Positions 2,449-46,458 of a stretch of DNA of 47,628 nucleotides are shown one piece after another. This DNA is from a virus, in IMG/VR virus record IMGVR_UViG_3300033143_001222, positions 1 to 47,628 of that record; one strand, 5' to 3'. How positions within the stretch are numbered: the stretch's first letter is position 1; the number at the start of each line of letters is the position of its first letter. A program made the position numbers and the translations under genes. The notes under the pieces were generated by a model. That model did no database searches. It was not told where the DNA came from and worked only from the letters and a program-made list of their open reading frames with translations.

Positions 2449-3204
2449 ATGAGAAAAATATACAGTGTTTACAAAATTACAAACCTAATAACTCAAAAAA
2501 TATATATTGGAGTTACTTGTCGAGATATGAAAACGAGATGGAGGCAACACAAAAATAGAAAACCACAAAATAATTTTTTCAGACTTTGTATCAAAAAATA
2601 TGGAGAAAAAAACTTTAAAATTGAAATTTTATTTTTGTTTTCCTCGCAAGACAAAGCATACGAAAAAGAAAAATATCTTATCAATAAACATAAAACTAAT
2701 ATATGCCGTTACCCAGAAGGTGTTGGCATGAATATGTCTGATGGTGGAGAAAGGGGGAACTACGGTTATGTTGCTACAGAAGAGCACAGAAAAAATTTAA
2801 GCAAAGCCTTTACTGGAAGAAAAATAACTAATACAGAAAACATGAGAAAAGCAAAATTAGGCGCCAAAAATCCAATGTATGGTAAAAAAATGTCAGAAGA
2901 AGGGAAAAAACAAAGAAGTGATTTTTGGAAGACGGACGCTAATCCGATGAAGGGGAAAACTGGAAAAAACAACCCGCTATACGGAAGGGAGAGGCCTAAG
3001 CATGTTAAAGAGGCTTTGTTAAAAAATAACATGAAGAGGGCAAGACCAGTTTTACAAATATGCCCTGAAACGAATAAAGTATTAAATGAGTTTGAAAGTT
3101 GTGGCGCTGCCTGTAGATCAGTAAATATAAAAAATGGCGTTCATGGCGCCTGTAATAAAAAACAGAAAACAGCAGGCGGGTATAAATGGAGATATAAGAA
3201 ATGA
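2449..3204 (+). CDS. GIY-YIG homing endonuclease with NUMOD modules
   Basis: A 251-aa protein. The N-terminal 95 residues form a GIY-YIG nuclease domain, with SVYKITN standing for the GIY strand, KIYIGVT for YIG, and the Arg/His helix RWRQH. Residues about 105-190 contain NUMOD3-type DNA-binding repeats (HRKNLSKAFTGRK, AKNPMYGKKMSEE, NPMKGKTGKNNPLYGRE). The C-terminus is NUMOD1-like (RPVLQICPETNKVLNEF). Such enzymes cut a specific site so that their own gene is copied into it. The gene is visibly A/T-richer than its neighbours and has no strong ribosome site, which suggests recent transfer. It replaces the centre of a helicase gene. Confidence 0.88.
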   Translation: MRKIYSVYKITNLITQKIYIGVTCRDMKTRWRQHKNRKPQNNFFRLCIKKYGEKNFKIEILFLFSSQDKAYEKEKYLINKHKTNICRYPEGVGMNMSDGGERGNYGYVATEEHRKNLSKAFTGRKITNTENMRKAKLGAKNPMYGKKMSEEGKKQRSDFWKTDANPMKGKTGKNNPLYGRERPKHVKEALLKNNMKRARPVLQICPETNKVLNEFESCGAACRSVNIKNGVHGACNKKQKTAGGYKWRYKK

Positions 3205-3564: not shown

Positions 3565-4689
3565 TTGACTTTATCAGCAGAAGAACTCAAAGAAGCGTAT
3601 GATGCACACAAGACCTTCAATGGATGCGCTCGTGAAGCAGCGGCCTTTTTAAACCTGAATATCAGGACTTATGGCGAGAGGCTTAAAAAAGCAAAAGAAA
3701 AATTCCTATACAACATGCCCGATGACCACAACCTGAAGGGCGTCAGTAACTACGAAAAACTAAACCCTGAAACCGGCGAGTGGGAGGCCACCCGAAGGTG
3801 GTGCAAATCAGACAAAGATAAAGAAAACGCTCAAGAAATAGCCTCTGTGATACTGAAGGGCATTCTTGATAAGATTAAACCAGTTGTTCCAACCCCCGCT
3901 CCAAAACATACAGTTTCCGACCTGTTAGCTGAATATAATTTAACCGACTTCCATCTGGGCGCCCTAGCCCACGCAGAGGAGAGTGGCGACGACTGGAATA
4001 TTGATATAGCAGAAGACCTGGTTCGTAAATGGTTGTTATCCGCTATGGACTCTGTGCCAAATGCACACACCGCAGTCTTGAACAATATGGGTGACTACCA
4101 GCATTTTAGCTCTATGATAGCCGAGACACCAGCACACAAGCACCCTCTGGACGCAGCCGCTAGACCGTACTTAATAGTAAGAGCCGCCATAAGAATAATG
4201 CGCATGTTGATTGACGAGCTGTTGAAAAAACATGAGCATGTCCATGTCAAAATATGTGATGCCAATCATGATCCGTATGGTCAATTGTTCTTGCGTGAAT
4301 CTCTAAGGCCTCTATATGAAAGCGAACCCAGAGTAAGTATAGACGATTCACCTACAGCATATTATTGCTATGAATGGGGAGACGTGAGCTTATTCTATCA
4401 TCACGGCAACAAGAAAAACCTTAAACAGATATCTGAGGTATTTGTAGGGACGTTTAGGAAAATATATGGTCGCACTAAATTTAGCTATGGAAGAATAGGC
4501 CATTTCCATCATGGCGCATCTACAGAGGACTGTCTTATGAAGACAGAGATTATGCCAACGCTAGCGCCCAAAGATAATCACGCGGCAGAAAGCGGATACT
4601 TAAGCAAGAGGGAGGCGGTGACGGTCGTGTTCCACAAAAAATATGGGGAGGTGAAGCGTATCACCACATCTCCGGAGATGGTGTTGTGA
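3565..4689 (+). CDS. Metallophosphoesterase-family protein
   Basis: A 374-aa protein starting at TTG, 3 bases after a GTGGGGGAT ribosome-site region. Residues 1-45 look like a small helix-turn-helix (AAAFLNLNIRTYGERLKKA). The calcineurin-like phosphoesterase motifs follow in order: DFH (128-130), GD (176-177), NHD (234-236), HHG (279-281) and GHFHH (312-316), which supply the two-metal site. Family members in phage replication regions are thought to act as nucleases or phosphatases; the substrate here is unknown. The stop overlaps the GTG start of the next gene. Confidence 0.8.
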   Translation: MTLSAEELKEAYDAHKTFNGCAREAAAFLNLNIRTYGERLKKAKEKFLYNMPDDHNLKGVSNYEKLNPETGEWEATRRWCKSDKDKENAQEIASVILKGILDKIKPVVPTPAPKHTVSDLLAEYNLTDFHLGALAHAEESGDDWNIDIAEDLVRKWLLSAMDSVPNAHTAVLNNMGDYQHFSSMIAETPAHKHPLDAAARPYLIVRAAIRIMRMLIDELLKKHEHVHVKICDANHDPYGQLFLRESLRPLYESEPRVSIDDSPTAYYCYEWGDVSLFYHHGNKKNLKQISEVFVGTFRKIYGRTKFSYGRIGHFHHGASTEDCLMKTEIMPTLAPKDNHAAESGYLSKREAVTVVFHKKYGEVKRITTSPEMVL

Positions 4690-5479: not shown

Positions 5480-5509
5480 GTTGCTATTCTTTCAACCATT
5501 CTTTACTCT
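5480..5509 (+). promoter_or_regulatory. Promoter with operator palindrome O1
   Basis: A sigma70-type promoter TTGCTA (5481-5486), 17-base spacer, TACTCT (5504-5509), expected start near 5516. The -35 lies in the palindrome GTTGCTATTCTTTCAAC (5480-5496), matching the GTTG-N9-CAAC sites at 6210, 6241 and 43491. It drives the HTH gene at 5553, so the HTH protein may regulate itself. Confidence 0.6.
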
Positions 5510-5514
5510 ATTAC

Positions 5515-5530
5515 TTGTGCGGCGGCACAA
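5515..5530. promoter_or_regulatory. Perfect palindrome at the predicted transcription start
   Basis: TTGTGC-GGCG-GCACAA, a perfect inverted repeat with 6-base arms, lies exactly at the predicted +1 of the 5481 promoter. It could be a second regulator site or a 5' mRNA hairpin; it does not match the GTTGA-N7-TCAAC consensus. Confidence 0.4.
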
Positions 5531-5552
5531 CACTGAATAGGAACGAACGACT

Positions 5553-5762
5553 ATGAACCGCGTAGAAAAAATGATTGAAAAGTTCAAGCCGGCCTTTGAG
5601 GGATCAATCCCTAAGATGTCCAAAGCTATGAACATTGATAGAACCACGCTTCACCACGCCATGAAGCGTGGAACTTTTAGCACTGACTTGCAAGAGAAGT
5701 TTTTGGATCTGGCCAAAGAGCATAAAGTTAAAGTCAACCCAGTAGACCTGTTGAATGTCTAA
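5553..5762 (+). CDS. Small HTH DNA-binding protein (Cro/CI-like)
   Basis: A 69-aa basic protein with ribosome site TAGGAACGA. Residues about 16-45 (SIPKMSKAMNIDRTTLHHAMKRG) fit a helix-turn-helix with the second helix TTLHHAMKR in the recognition position. The size suits a Cro-like or YdaS-like regulator. It is the first gene after a promoter that carries a GTTG-N9-CAAC palindrome and is the simplest candidate for the protein that binds it. Binding itself is inferred, not shown. Confidence 0.7.
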   Translation: MNRVEKMIEKFKPAFEGSIPKMSKAMNIDRTTLHHAMKRGTFSTDLQEKFLDLAKEHKVKVNPVDLLNV

Positions 5763-6180
5763 AAAATCCAACAAACTATCCATTCTGAATCGCGCCCTGT
5801 GGAACGACGCCAGCTTGCCTTGGCTGGAAGAGCATTTGCAGATTGCTATTGTTGAAGCTTTAAACAAGATGGTGCTTGCCGGCGCCAAGTTTACGTTTGC
5901 CGCTGACATGAACGCCGGCAGACGGAGTAAGAGGCAGGGAGCCAAGCTAAAGTTAGCCGGTATGGTCGCCGGTGAATGCGACTTGCGTTTTTACTTGGAC
6001 GATGGGCGGCTTGGTCAGATAGAATTAAAGACCAAGCGCAATGGCGTTGTCTCTAAAGTCCAAAAAAATCGTCACAATCTGTTGCGCTCACTCGGCCATG
6101 ATGTTCGTGTAGTCAAGGCTAACTGCCCAACAGATGCCGTTAATCAAGTCCTCGCTATTCTCGACGAGTGGATATCTTAA
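5755..6180 (+). CDS. VRR-NUC domain nuclease
   Basis: A 141-aa PD-(D/E)XK nuclease of the VRR-NUC type. An N-terminal EEHLQIAIVEAL helix is followed by the basic stretch NAGRRSKRQGAKLKLAG, then the catalytic D76 (GECDLRFY), E90 and K92 (IELK), and the QKNRHNLLRSLGH helix typical of the family. Phage VRR-NUC proteins act on branched DNA such as Holliday junctions, which would suit resolution of recombination intermediates before packaging. It overlaps the HTH gene by 8 bases and is co-transcribed with it. Confidence 0.85.
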   Translation: MSKKSNKLSILNRALWNDASLPWLEEHLQIAIVEALNKMVLAGAKFTFAADMNAGRRSKRQGAKLKLAGMVAGECDLRFYLDDGRLGQIELKTKRNGVVSKVQKNRHNLLRSLGHDVRVVKANCPTDAVNQVLAILDEWIS

Positions 6181-6209
6181 AAATTAACGCGAATTAATTT
6201 CTTTTTACT

Positions 6210-6257
6210 GTTGACTACAATTCAACTTGCTCCTAGTATTGTTGCAAGACATTCAAC
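6210..6257 (+). promoter_or_regulatory. Strong promoter with two operator palindromes (O2, O3)
   Basis: TTGACT (6211-6216), 17-base spacer, TAGTAT (6234-6239) is the best sigma70-type promoter in the window, start expected near 6246. O2, GTTGACTACAATTCAAC (6210-6226), covers the -35. O3, GTTGCAAGACATTCAAC (6241-6257), covers the start site. The centres are 31 bp apart, about three helical turns, an arrangement fit for cooperative repression of the recombination operon. Confidence 0.7.
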
Positions 6258-25152: not shown

Positions 25153-25496
25153 TTGTCTTTATACCAACTTTTTGCCACGTTTCGATCCTCTACAGTATCA
25201 ATGTTTGTTGGCGTGGCGTCAACACTCTTGATAAAGCCCTCTGAATTTCTGTGGACCTCAAAGTGATACGTGGGATAATCCTTCTCAACCGATAGAGCTT
25301 CCATCTTTTCGATCAAGGCTTTTTGTTGTGCCAGGATCTCATCGGGTATTTTTTGCTCGACAACAACCGGCGCTAACGGCTCCAATTTAATATTGTTGAT
25401 CGCAGCCAATATCTCTGCCTTATCCTGCGAAGACGGCTCTTTCTTCACAAGCTTTTTAGGCCAAGACTTTTTTATATCTGACTTTTTAACCCGCAT
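25149..25496 (-). CDS. Hypothetical phage structural-region protein
   Basis: A 115-aa protein starting MRVKKSDIKKSW. The first 25 residues are basic, the middle has a helix (IPDEILAQQKALIEKMEAL), and the end (YHFEVHRNSEGFIKSVDATP) resembles a small beta domain common in phage proteins of unknown role. A GTG two codons earlier (25502) could also start it. It overlaps the preceding gene by 11 bases. Confidence 0.6.
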   Translation of the reverse strand: MRVKKSDIKKSWPKKLVKKEPSSQDKAEILAAINNIKLEPLAPVVVEQKIPDEILAQQKALIEKMEALSVEKDYPTYHFEVHRNSEGFIKSVDATPTNIDTVEDRNVAKSWYKDK

Positions 25497-39987: not shown

Positions 39988-40061
39988 ATTGTTTCCTATG
40001 TGTTGAATGACGTTCAACCTATTGAAATGATTACCCTTTATTTATAACTCAGCCTCGAAAC

Positions 40062-41880: not shown

Positions 41881-42397
41881 CATCATCCCTCTTCAACGCA
41901 GCCAGTTCAGCCTCAAGCTCTTCCCTGGTCGCATTATCCAGGTCGAGTGATACTGATTTCTTTTCATTAAACGACTGGATAGCAACGTGCTTACCAATCA
42001 GCTCCAGGCCTTTGGCAGCTCCACCGGAATCAAACTTGAATAGCAGGTTGCCATCATCATCGGTGTCCTGCACCATATCCTTGCCGACACGCTTCATCAC
42101 AGGACTGACCTCACTCATGCACCGCTCGTGTAGCTTGACTGATTGCCGTAGAACGTACTCTGCATCTATCTTGACAACGGCCATACGAGCGGCTTTGCCC
42201 TCTTCCACCAATTTGAGGATGTGCGCATTGGTCATGAGTTTTGATCCCTGAGATTTAGCTGTCTTCGCGCTATAACCCGCTCTGATGGCCGCTTGCGTAC
42301 GGTTGCCATCAATCAGCATCTCGGCAGCAAATAATTTTTGCTGATCGTTTAGCTTTCTAATCTTGTATTGCTTGGTGGTTTTTTTCTTTTTGGTCAT
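41873..42397 (-). CDS. terS: Terminase small subunit (Terminase_2 type)
   Basis: A 174-aa protein. After a basic start (MTKKKKTTKQYK) comes the HTH region KLNDQQKLFAAEMLIDGNRTQAAIRAGYSAKTAKSQ (read in parts), the signature of phage small terminases: NRTQAAIRAGYS. A later oligomerisation helix region and an acidic end (LKRDDDD) follow. It recognises phage DNA for packaging. The predicted promoter start almost coincides with the ATG, so its mRNA may be leaderless. Confidence 0.85.
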   Translation of the reverse strand: MTKKKKTTKQYKIRKLNDQQKLFAAEMLIDGNRTQAAIRAGYSAKTAKSQGSKLMTNAHILKLVEEGKAARMAVVKIDAEYVLRQSVKLHERCMSEVSPVMKRVGKDMVQDTDDDGNLLFKFDSGGAAKGLELIGKHVAIQSFNEKKSVSLDLDNATREELEAELAALKRDDDD

Positions 42398-42404
42398 ACC
42401 ATCC

Positions 42405-42434
42405 ACTCTATCCCAATGTTGAAATCCAATCAAT
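42405..42434 (-). promoter_or_regulatory. Late promoter with operator palindrome O5
   Basis: Read on the - strand: TTGATT (42433-42428), 17-base spacer, TAGAGT (42410-42405). The predicted start is about 42398, next to the small terminase ATG at 42397. The palindrome ATTGA-N7-TCAAC (42434-42418) matches the GTTGA-N7-TCAAC operators with one change and overlaps the -35 in the same register. It would drive the whole virion operon. Confidence 0.6.
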
Positions 42435-42861: not shown

Positions 42862-43476
42862 ATGAGAATCGAGATTGAGATAACTAATGAGCAAAGTTAT
42901 GGCTCGTTAGTTAAAAGGATAGGGCAGCAAAAAGTTGAGGATGTTTTTAGCAATGCTTGTGATGCTGTTTTATCTAGTATGGATACAGCATCGCTGGGAA
43001 CCCAGAAACAGAGGGTATATGATATTGTTAAAAAAATGGGCAACGGCTCGCCTAAAGACTTCTTTAATGCTTATCGAGATACCTACCCAAATAACAATAT
43101 GGCGTATACAACTTTGGGCGTGTATCTTACAAACATGATTAGCGATGGGGTTGTCCTTAAAACCAGTCGCGGCCAATACGCCTATATTGGCTACAGAGGC
43201 GCAACTGAGCCTGCGCCTATCCCTGAGCCAGCCCACGAGACTCCTGTGGAAGATATAGGCAGCCAGCTCAACGATGAGCTTACAGAGGAAATATGTGACA
43301 CCATAGAGGTTGGCGGGAGAAAGTGTACCGCTGATTATATTGTTGACCATATAACTATGTCTGACGAACAAGGTATAACCGCTAGAATAGATACCCTAGT
43401 TAAGCATGGCATCATCAAGGTACAGCAATCATCGCTGCATGGTGAAGCCGTTATAATCTACACAATAGCTGTATAA
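42862..43476 (+). CDS. Putative DNA-binding protein with two winged-helix-like domains
   Basis: A 204-aa protein with ribosome site ATGGAGATACG. Residues 45-110 (QRVYDIVKKMGNGSPKDFFNAYRD, TTLGVYLTNMISDGVVLKTSRGQYAY) and 140-200 (ADYIVDHITMSDEQGITARIDTLVKHGIIKV) both fit winged helices, joined by a proline/glutamate linker. Lying next to the repeat-rich region, it could be an origin-binding or regulatory protein. No named family recognised. Confidence 0.6.
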   Translation: MRIEIEITNEQSYGSLVKRIGQQKVEDVFSNACDAVLSSMDTASLGTQKQRVYDIVKKMGNGSPKDFFNAYRDTYPNNNMAYTTLGVYLTNMISDGVVLKTSRGQYAYIGYRGATEPAPIPEPAHETPVEDIGSQLNDELTEEICDTIEVGGRKCTADYIVDHITMSDEQGITARIDTLVKHGIIKVQQSSLHGEAVIIYTIAV

Positions 43477-43490
43477 AAACAAAATTAACT

Positions 43491-43519
43491 GTTGAAATTA
43501 AATCAACGCAGTGTATCGT
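43491..43519 (+). promoter_or_regulatory. Early promoter with operator palindrome O4
   Basis: TTGAAA (43492-43497), 16-base spacer, TATCGT (43514-43519), start expected near 43526. GTTGAAATTAAATCAAC (43491-43507) is a perfect GTTGA-N7-TCAAC site over the -35. It drives the small-gene string leading to the primase-helicase. Confidence 0.6.
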
Positions 43520-45702: not shown

Positions 45703-46458
45703 ATGACACCGAAAAAAGGCGACATAATAGCAGTTTGGTTTTCTTGCGGAGCCGCCAGTGCAGTAGCTGCAAAGTTGGCTCTGGAGAAATACCCAGACTG
45801 TGATGTTAGACTAATCAACAATCCGGTTATTGAGGAACACCCTGACAATTTACGATTTATGAAAGATTGTGAAGATTGGCTGGGCGTAAAGATTGATATA
45901 GCAAAGAATGAGAAATTCCCTGATTGCTCTGCACATGAGGTCTGGAAGAAAGTTAGATATATGGCTGGTCATGCCGGAGCGCCTTGCACGGTTAAGTTAA
46001 AAAAAGAGGCTCGGCAGCAATGGGAAGACGAAAACAAACCAGACTGGCACGTTCTGGGTTTTACGATAGATGAGCGCAGAAGGTACGACAGGTTTATTAT
46101 GGGGGAGCTGCCCAATGTTCTCCCTATACTGATAGAGGCAGGGATAAACAAATCAAAGTGCTTTCAGATACTAGAAAAGGCAGGGGTCAAGCGCCCAGCT
46201 ATTTATGACTTAGGCTATCCGAACGCTAACTGTATAGGCTGTGTTAAGGGGCAGTATGGCAAATACTGGAATCTGGTTAGAAAGACGTTTCCAGATGTAT
46301 TTAAACAACGCTGTGAACTATCAAGAGAGTTAGGAGTTAAACTCTGGAAGCTAACTGATACAGATAGGCGCTTTCTTGACGAACTGCCAGAAGATTACGA
46401 TGACGGACAACAGGTAATGGATTTTGAATGTGGAATATTTTGTGAGGAAAACCAATGA
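45703..46458 (+). CDS. PAPS reductase/adenine nucleotide alpha hydrolase-like protein
   Basis: A 251-aa PP-loop enzyme with ribosome site AAAGGAGG. WFSCGAASAVAAKLAL (12-27) is the nucleotide-binding PP-loop. GAPCTVKLKKEA (C95), YPNANCIGCVKGQYGKYWN (C177, C180) and CGIFC at the end give cysteines that may hold a metal or cluster or take part in sulfur transfer. Phage members of this group are called PAPS reductases; some relatives make modified nucleosides or phosphorothioate DNA. The actual substrate is unknown. Confidence 0.78.
   Translation: MTPKKGDIIAVWFSCGAASAVAAKLALEKYPDCDVRLINNPVIEEHPDNLRFMKDCEDWLGVKIDIAKNEKFPDCSAHEVWKKVRYMAGHAGAPCTVKLKKEARQQWEDENKPDWHVLGFTIDERRRYDRFIMGELPNVLPILIEAGINKSKCFQILEKAGVKRPAIYDLGYPNANCIGCVKGQYGKYWNLVRKTFPDVFKQRCELSRELGVKLWKLTDTDRRFLDELPEDYDDGQQVMDFECGIFCEENQ

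Follow-up and report, generated by a model that had tools for sequence, protein, structure and literature searches.

Operators bound by phage repressors are familiar elements of a classic kind of control circuit. Activators can occupy much the same ground: lambda CII recognizes the direct repeat TTGC-N6-TTGC around the -35 element, and both CII-like and T4 MotA-like activators act around -35 to ~-19. An inverted repeat of another kind, the Fnr-type box, reads TTGAT-N4-ATCAA. Lambda-type Cro/CI repressors bind palindromic operators of 16-17 bp, as exemplified by PY54 Cro (PMC4488713). In cluster A mycobacteriophages, a monomeric repressor binds asymmetric 13-bp sites, the stoperators, and stops elongation (PMC6550527, PMC9283540); these sites lie mostly in one orientation relative to transcription (PMC6550527).

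The window analyzed here is the whole of the 47,628-base virus contig IMGVR_UViG_3300033143_001222. Its first 25 kb, used as a query against 50,697 phage records, gave no closely related DNA, and a search of the INPHARED phage collection with the protein P0001 found no match. At both ends (43.5-47.6 kb and 0-12.5 kb), genes run rightward and encode primase, exonuclease and endonuclease VII, followed by recombination and replication genes, while 12.6-42.4 kb holds leftward terminase and virion genes. A 1,712-aa virion protein that matches podoviruses such as BPP-1, together with a head-tail adaptor, major head, internal virion proteins and terminases, suggests that the record is a podovirus with a broadly BPP-1-like virion content. 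No Pfam integrase match was found anywhere in the record, the proteins scanned (all but a few ORFs, mostly late genes) gave no match to a CI or integrase family, and Rfam and tRNA scans were both empty. The early region also carries a phosphoadenosine phosphosulfate reductase family gene (phrog_424, 45703-46458).

The original prediction had placed a 17-bp dyad, GTTG-N9-CAAC, at five positions (O1 to O5). These coordinates are right, with four exact sites (5480, 6210, 6241 and 43491) and one bearing a single change (42418). The total of four exact matches was too low, as the window contains eight, against 0.78 expected, and at least eight were reached in 0 of 100 shuffles. A perfect intergenic site at 40002-40018, here termed O6 and the best of the late sites, had been missed and reads GTTGAATGACGTTCAAC; the remaining three are intragenic and start at 25207, 32937 and 45637. 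The five sites originally listed are all outside called genes.

The intragenic matches represent a slight excess, with three exact sites in ~45 kb of coding DNA versus 0.74 expected (P ~0.04), whereas the ~2.5 kb of noncoding DNA contains five versus ~0.04 expected (Poisson P ~1e-9). When every dyad of 4-base arms separated by 0-20 bases is counted in noncoding DNA, GTTG with a gap of 9 is the most frequent. When the same noncoding stretches were simulated with a Markov model, 4 of 300 simulations gave any dyad with at least five copies, and dyads whose arms hold at least two G/C had at most three copies in every one of the 300.

Table 1. Operators, predicted promoters and associated features in the window
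Feature	Position	Strand	Remarks
O1 operator, GTTGCTATTCTTTCAAC	5480..5496	+	Exact; overlaps -35 of the predicted HTH gene promoter; kept in L007, L005 and L008
Predicted HTH gene promoter, TTGCTA-17-TACTCT	5481..5509	+	Weak -10; spacing equal in four phages; from sequence and alignment
Invariant hairpin/dyad, TTGTGCGGCGGCACAA	5515..5530	+	At predicted HTH mRNA start; identical in four phages, flanks differ; RNA hairpin fold
69-aa HTH protein, candidate repressor	5553..5762	+	Predicted fold; 71-78% identity in three relatives
O2 operator, GTTGACTACAATTCAAC	6210..6226	+	Exact; over -35 of the predicted recombination operon promoter; conserved
Predicted recombination operon promoter, TTGACT-17-TAGTAT	6211..6239	+	Relatives keep hexamers and spacing
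O3 operator, GTTGCAAGACATTCAAC	6241..6257	+	Exact; over predicted transcription start; 31 bp from O2; conserved
O6 operator, GTTGAACGTCATTCAAC	40002..40018	-	Exact; in leader of portal/capsid operon; kept in L023 and L025
Predicted late promoter, TTGACT-17-TATAAA	40041..40069	-	Near-consensus; upstream of O6; from sequence
Predicted terminase promoter, TTGATT-17-TAGAGT	42405..42433	-	-10 ends 7 bases before ATG at 42397; from sequence
O5 imperfect operator, ATTGATTGGATTTCAAC (gene strand)	42418..42434	-	Over predicted terminase promoter -35; sixth best matrix score
O4 operator, GTTGAAATTAAATCAAC	43491..43507	+	Exact; over predicted -35 of early small-gene operon; top relatives-matrix score
Predicted early small-gene promoter, TTGAAA-16-TATCGT	43492..43519	+	From sequence

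Palindromic operators of 14-18 bp lying over promoters, as in Cro/CI systems, are present here as six conserved 17-bp dyads. The proposal that the -35 hexamer begins at the second base of the palindrome applies to O1, O2, O4 and O5, but not to O3, which sits at the predicted start, or to O6, which lies past it. The latter lies 14 bp ahead of the start codon (ATG, 39987) of an operon leading to portal/head-tail adaptor and capsid genes, and its center is ~24 bases beyond the predicted start of the late promoter. The promoter coordinates are consensus matches, and promoter-like matches as a class are not commoner than in shuffles. A position over the -35, the +1 or the leader fits a blocking function. 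With 31 bp, or three helical turns, between O2 and O3, a pair of dimers could share one face of the DNA; the promoter hexamers are an equally possible cause of the fixed spacing. Both in the window (42397-42410) and in the relative L025, the predicted terminase -10 ends 6-7 bases before the ATG, so close that a nearly leaderless mRNA would result.

To examine conservation, we used relatives that had been found by homology to either the HTH protein or the Cas4-like exonuclease, independently of the motif. All three HTH-bearing relative contigs (L007, L005 and L008) have O1 before the HTH gene and O2/O3 before the recombination operon, and the O2-O3 start-to-start spacing is exactly 31 bp in these three and in the window. 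Of the three closest terminase-matched relatives, L023 and L025 keep O6 with altered spacers and L024 does not have it; terminase relatives at ≤72% identity contain no O6-type site at the corresponding place. The -10 region of the predicted late promoter upstream of O6, TTATAAATAAAG, is invariant in four phages. An imperfect O5 counterpart is found at L025:271-287, at a nearly equal distance before a start codon, while for the O4 region no relative was found, the gene query giving only a remote 35% partial match (L104). Across O1-O3 and O6 in the relatives, none of 88 half-site positions is changed compared with 33 of 99 in the spacers; the counts are 0 of 40 and 20 of 45 when only O3 and O6, the two without a -35 overlap, are considered. 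In sum, the dyad is enriched between genes and occupies six control positions, and in the relatives its half-sites are conserved at every base.

A symmetric weight matrix built from the relatives alone ranked O4, O6, O3, O1, O2 and O5 as the six best sites of the window, and the first five each scored higher than anything in the 60 simulated genomes. Because the training sites were exact GTTG-N9-CAAC matches, this result bears on position and inner bases more than on the half-sites. Sites that are conserved in relatives found without the motif, and the agreement of the matrix, bear out the central claim of the original prediction, and GTTGA-N7-TCAAC is strongly supported as an operator that early and late control regions have in common and that is conserved in relatives. 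It is extremely improbable that the sites are chance look-alikes in which a -35 consensus (TTGA) acquired an accidental second half. Four of the sites do have a -35 in common and three exact matches are intragenic, but the half-sites of O3 and O6 are conserved without a -35 overlap and the exact 31-bp spacing recurs in four phages. We rejected chance -35 similarity on the simulations, the conservation of the 31-bp pair, the matrix and the half-site versus spacer counts.

The best candidate for the operator binder, and a well-supported one, is the predicted 69-aa HTH protein, since it is encoded between O1 and O2, is predicted to fold like Cro and lambda repressor, and accompanies O1-O3 in all four phages, the four related phages being the whole co-occurrence sample. 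Its putative recognition helix, RTTLHHAMKRG, is invariant in the four. The structural model, built on four sequences, reached a pLDDT of 85 (the best of five; the other four gave 58-65). In Foldseek searches with this model, phage Cro and repressor structures were among the best matches (TM 0.54-0.68, E of at least 0.2), the first being Xfaso 1 Cro (PDB 3bd1), and the N-terminal domain of TP901-1 CI (PDB 6tri) gave a TM of 0.68. With 14-17% identity and E values of 0.2-0.6 to 3bd1 and 6tri, this likeness is at the fold level only. The protein reached no curated family cut-off, a PDB sequence search returned spurious matches only, and a profile search of ~85,000 bacterial and archaeal GTDB genomes, in which close relatives alone are detectable, found no relative. 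In the Synechococcus phage Yong-M3-232, genes in the syntenic slot are annotated as cI, cII and RusA resolvase. Membership in the Cro/CI family is plausible.

The element TTGTGCGGCGGCACAA starts at ~+1 of the predicted O1 promoter, so the HTH mRNA may open with a hairpin; alternatively, the element may serve as an additional operator. Beyond the four phages, only L105 and L106 among 2.9 million viral contigs contain it, in chance-like occurrences, and neither showed homology to the window proteins tested.

When the 2.9 million contigs were scanned for the O2-O3 arrangement without regard to any protein, five carried it, including all three HTH-bearing relatives. The other two are L019, a chance-like case with no homology to the window proteins tested, and L022, an unrelated GC-rich phage of 61 kb in which two GTTG-N9-CAAC dyads 31 bp apart (3799-3846) lie between divergent HTH genes. 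Paired GTTGA-N7-TCAAC dyads 31 bp apart also occur in actinobacterial genomes (Cellulomonas, Paraoerskovia; L108:547-594 and L109:2148-2195) and resemble operators of an unrelated chromosomal regulator. Recombination-operon relatives at 50% identity (e.g., L011) gave no HTH match, and no such dyad was present in the upstream stretch read. A further operator-promoter is found at L007:2917-2933, ahead of a small gene; in the corresponding gap, the window contains a homing-endonuclease-like gene (2449-3204).

These data bear on whether the binder is another protein: the 204-aa protein at 42862, a different phage protein or a host transcription factor adopted as a cue. The 42862 gene adjoins O5 and O4, the function of the HTH protein is itself a prediction, and the dyads near the unrelated regulators in L022, L108 and L109 indicate that the word is not tied to a single protein family. 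On the other hand, O1 and O2 flank the HTH gene in 4 of 4 phages, and a host factor leaves unexplained that the 31-bp pair was found only in the HTH-bearing relatives and two other contigs. The 42862 protein, proposed as a second candidate regulator, was rejected, as it has no relative in the 2.9 million viral contigs of IMG/VR or in the operator-bearing relatives, which are fragments. Altogether, we regard a different binder as unlikely. The 204-aa protein (42862-43476) has no family match, and ~430 bp of AT-rich noncoding DNA precede its gene.

We favor a scheme in which the phage encodes a Cro/CI-like dimeric autorepressor, probably the 69-aa HTH protein, and the sites serve as its operators. 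An HTH dimer would bind each dyad with one recognition helix per GTTG half-site. At O1, it would block the -35 of its own gene, resulting in negative autoregulation, and at O2 and O3 two dimers would lie over the -35 and the start, closing the recombination operon tightly. Repressor bound at O4 would close the early small-gene operon, and the weaker O5 and the downstream O6 would hold back the terminase and portal/capsid operons. Operator strength would be graded, and we infer that one regulator could switch early and late transcription.

Could the same protein instead turn these promoters on? A lambda CII-like activator near the -35, or a dual regulator acting on early and late promoters, would fit the span of O1, O2, O4 and O5 from -35 to ~-19 and the mediocre predicted -10 hexamers. 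We consider this very unlikely, as the -35 hexamers are good, the dyads are inverted, unlike CII-type direct repeats, and only blocking is expected of O3, over a start, and O6, downstream of a near-consensus promoter.

A prophage repressor that silences all lytic promoters, with integration genes missing from the record or persistence as a plasmid, would also place operators on early and late promoters, in keeping with global silencing. A cI is present in related gene orders (Yong-M3-232) and the record, which carries no completeness estimate, may be incomplete. Against this, the record has no Pfam integrase and no CI was found, a 69-residue protein is too short to include a CI-type C-terminal induction domain, and the HTH protein has no relative in the ~85,000 bacterial and archaeal genomes, a search sensitive to close relatives only. 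We judge this explanation quite unlikely. A role in lysogeny is possible, yet unsupported because neither an integrase nor a CI was found.

In terms of dynamics, the autorepressor would most simply act as a timing device in the manner of Cro. Early promoters would fire immediately, and the repressor would build up and limit them. A repressor made early and acting on late genes requires a relief step, and none is visible in the sequence; late promoters might remain weakly active until, through replication, the operators become numerous enough to titrate the repressor. In its fullest form, this reading depicts a CI-less, apparently non-integrating podovirus group that uses a 69-aa Cro-like protein as a genome-wide clock, with late genes awaiting replication-driven titration, and with paired operators for recombination, single ones for its own and early genes, an imperfect one for terminase and a downstream roadblock for portal/capsid. 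We put this forward tentatively, as a possible but doubtful extension. If titration is true, early shut-off and late onset would be tied simply to genome replication, and this coupling would operate without a recognized phage RNA polymerase, sigma factor or antiterminator. The result is a testable regulon for an uncultured podovirus group, made up of a single motif, a single candidate protein and promoters predicted on the two arms. What goes beyond ordinary repressor operators is that early and terminase/virion control regions carry the same motif. In the literature searched, no paper described the motif, and this kind of circuit was undescribed there for this virus group.

Several known systems can be set apart from the locus described here. 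The half-sites are one base further apart than in the Fnr-type box, which was rejected for this reason, and CII-type direct repeats were rejected because all sites are inverted repeats. As with lambda CII, the -35 region is occupied and the syntenic slot of Yong-M3-232 includes a gene annotated cII, but here the start and leader are covered as well. Like the stoperators (PMC6550527, PMC9283540), the sites appear to serve one phage repressor and are distributed genome-wide, mostly between genes; unlike them, they are few, symmetric 17-bp dyads located mostly at promoters. Because the sites are symmetric inverted repeats (GTTG-N9-CAAC), a stoperator system was rejected, and O6 alone is placed like a roadblock in a manner that recalls it. 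A lambda-type bistable switch would have a divergent cI with shared operators; no such partner was encountered, with no CI among the scanned proteins and no integrase, and the neighbors of the HTH gene, including a resolvase-like nuclease, run codirectionally. On present evidence, the locus is not a switch of this type. The closest resemblance is to Cro/CI systems such as that of PY54, which share a small HTH protein, a palindromic operator of the same size that overlaps promoter elements, an operator upstream of the protein's own gene, several operators per phage and adjoining early replication/recombination genes. The locus departs from these systems in having no divergent cI partner found, no sequence-family match and a binding activity that is predicted only, and in its operators, which spread from the early to the terminase and virion operons.
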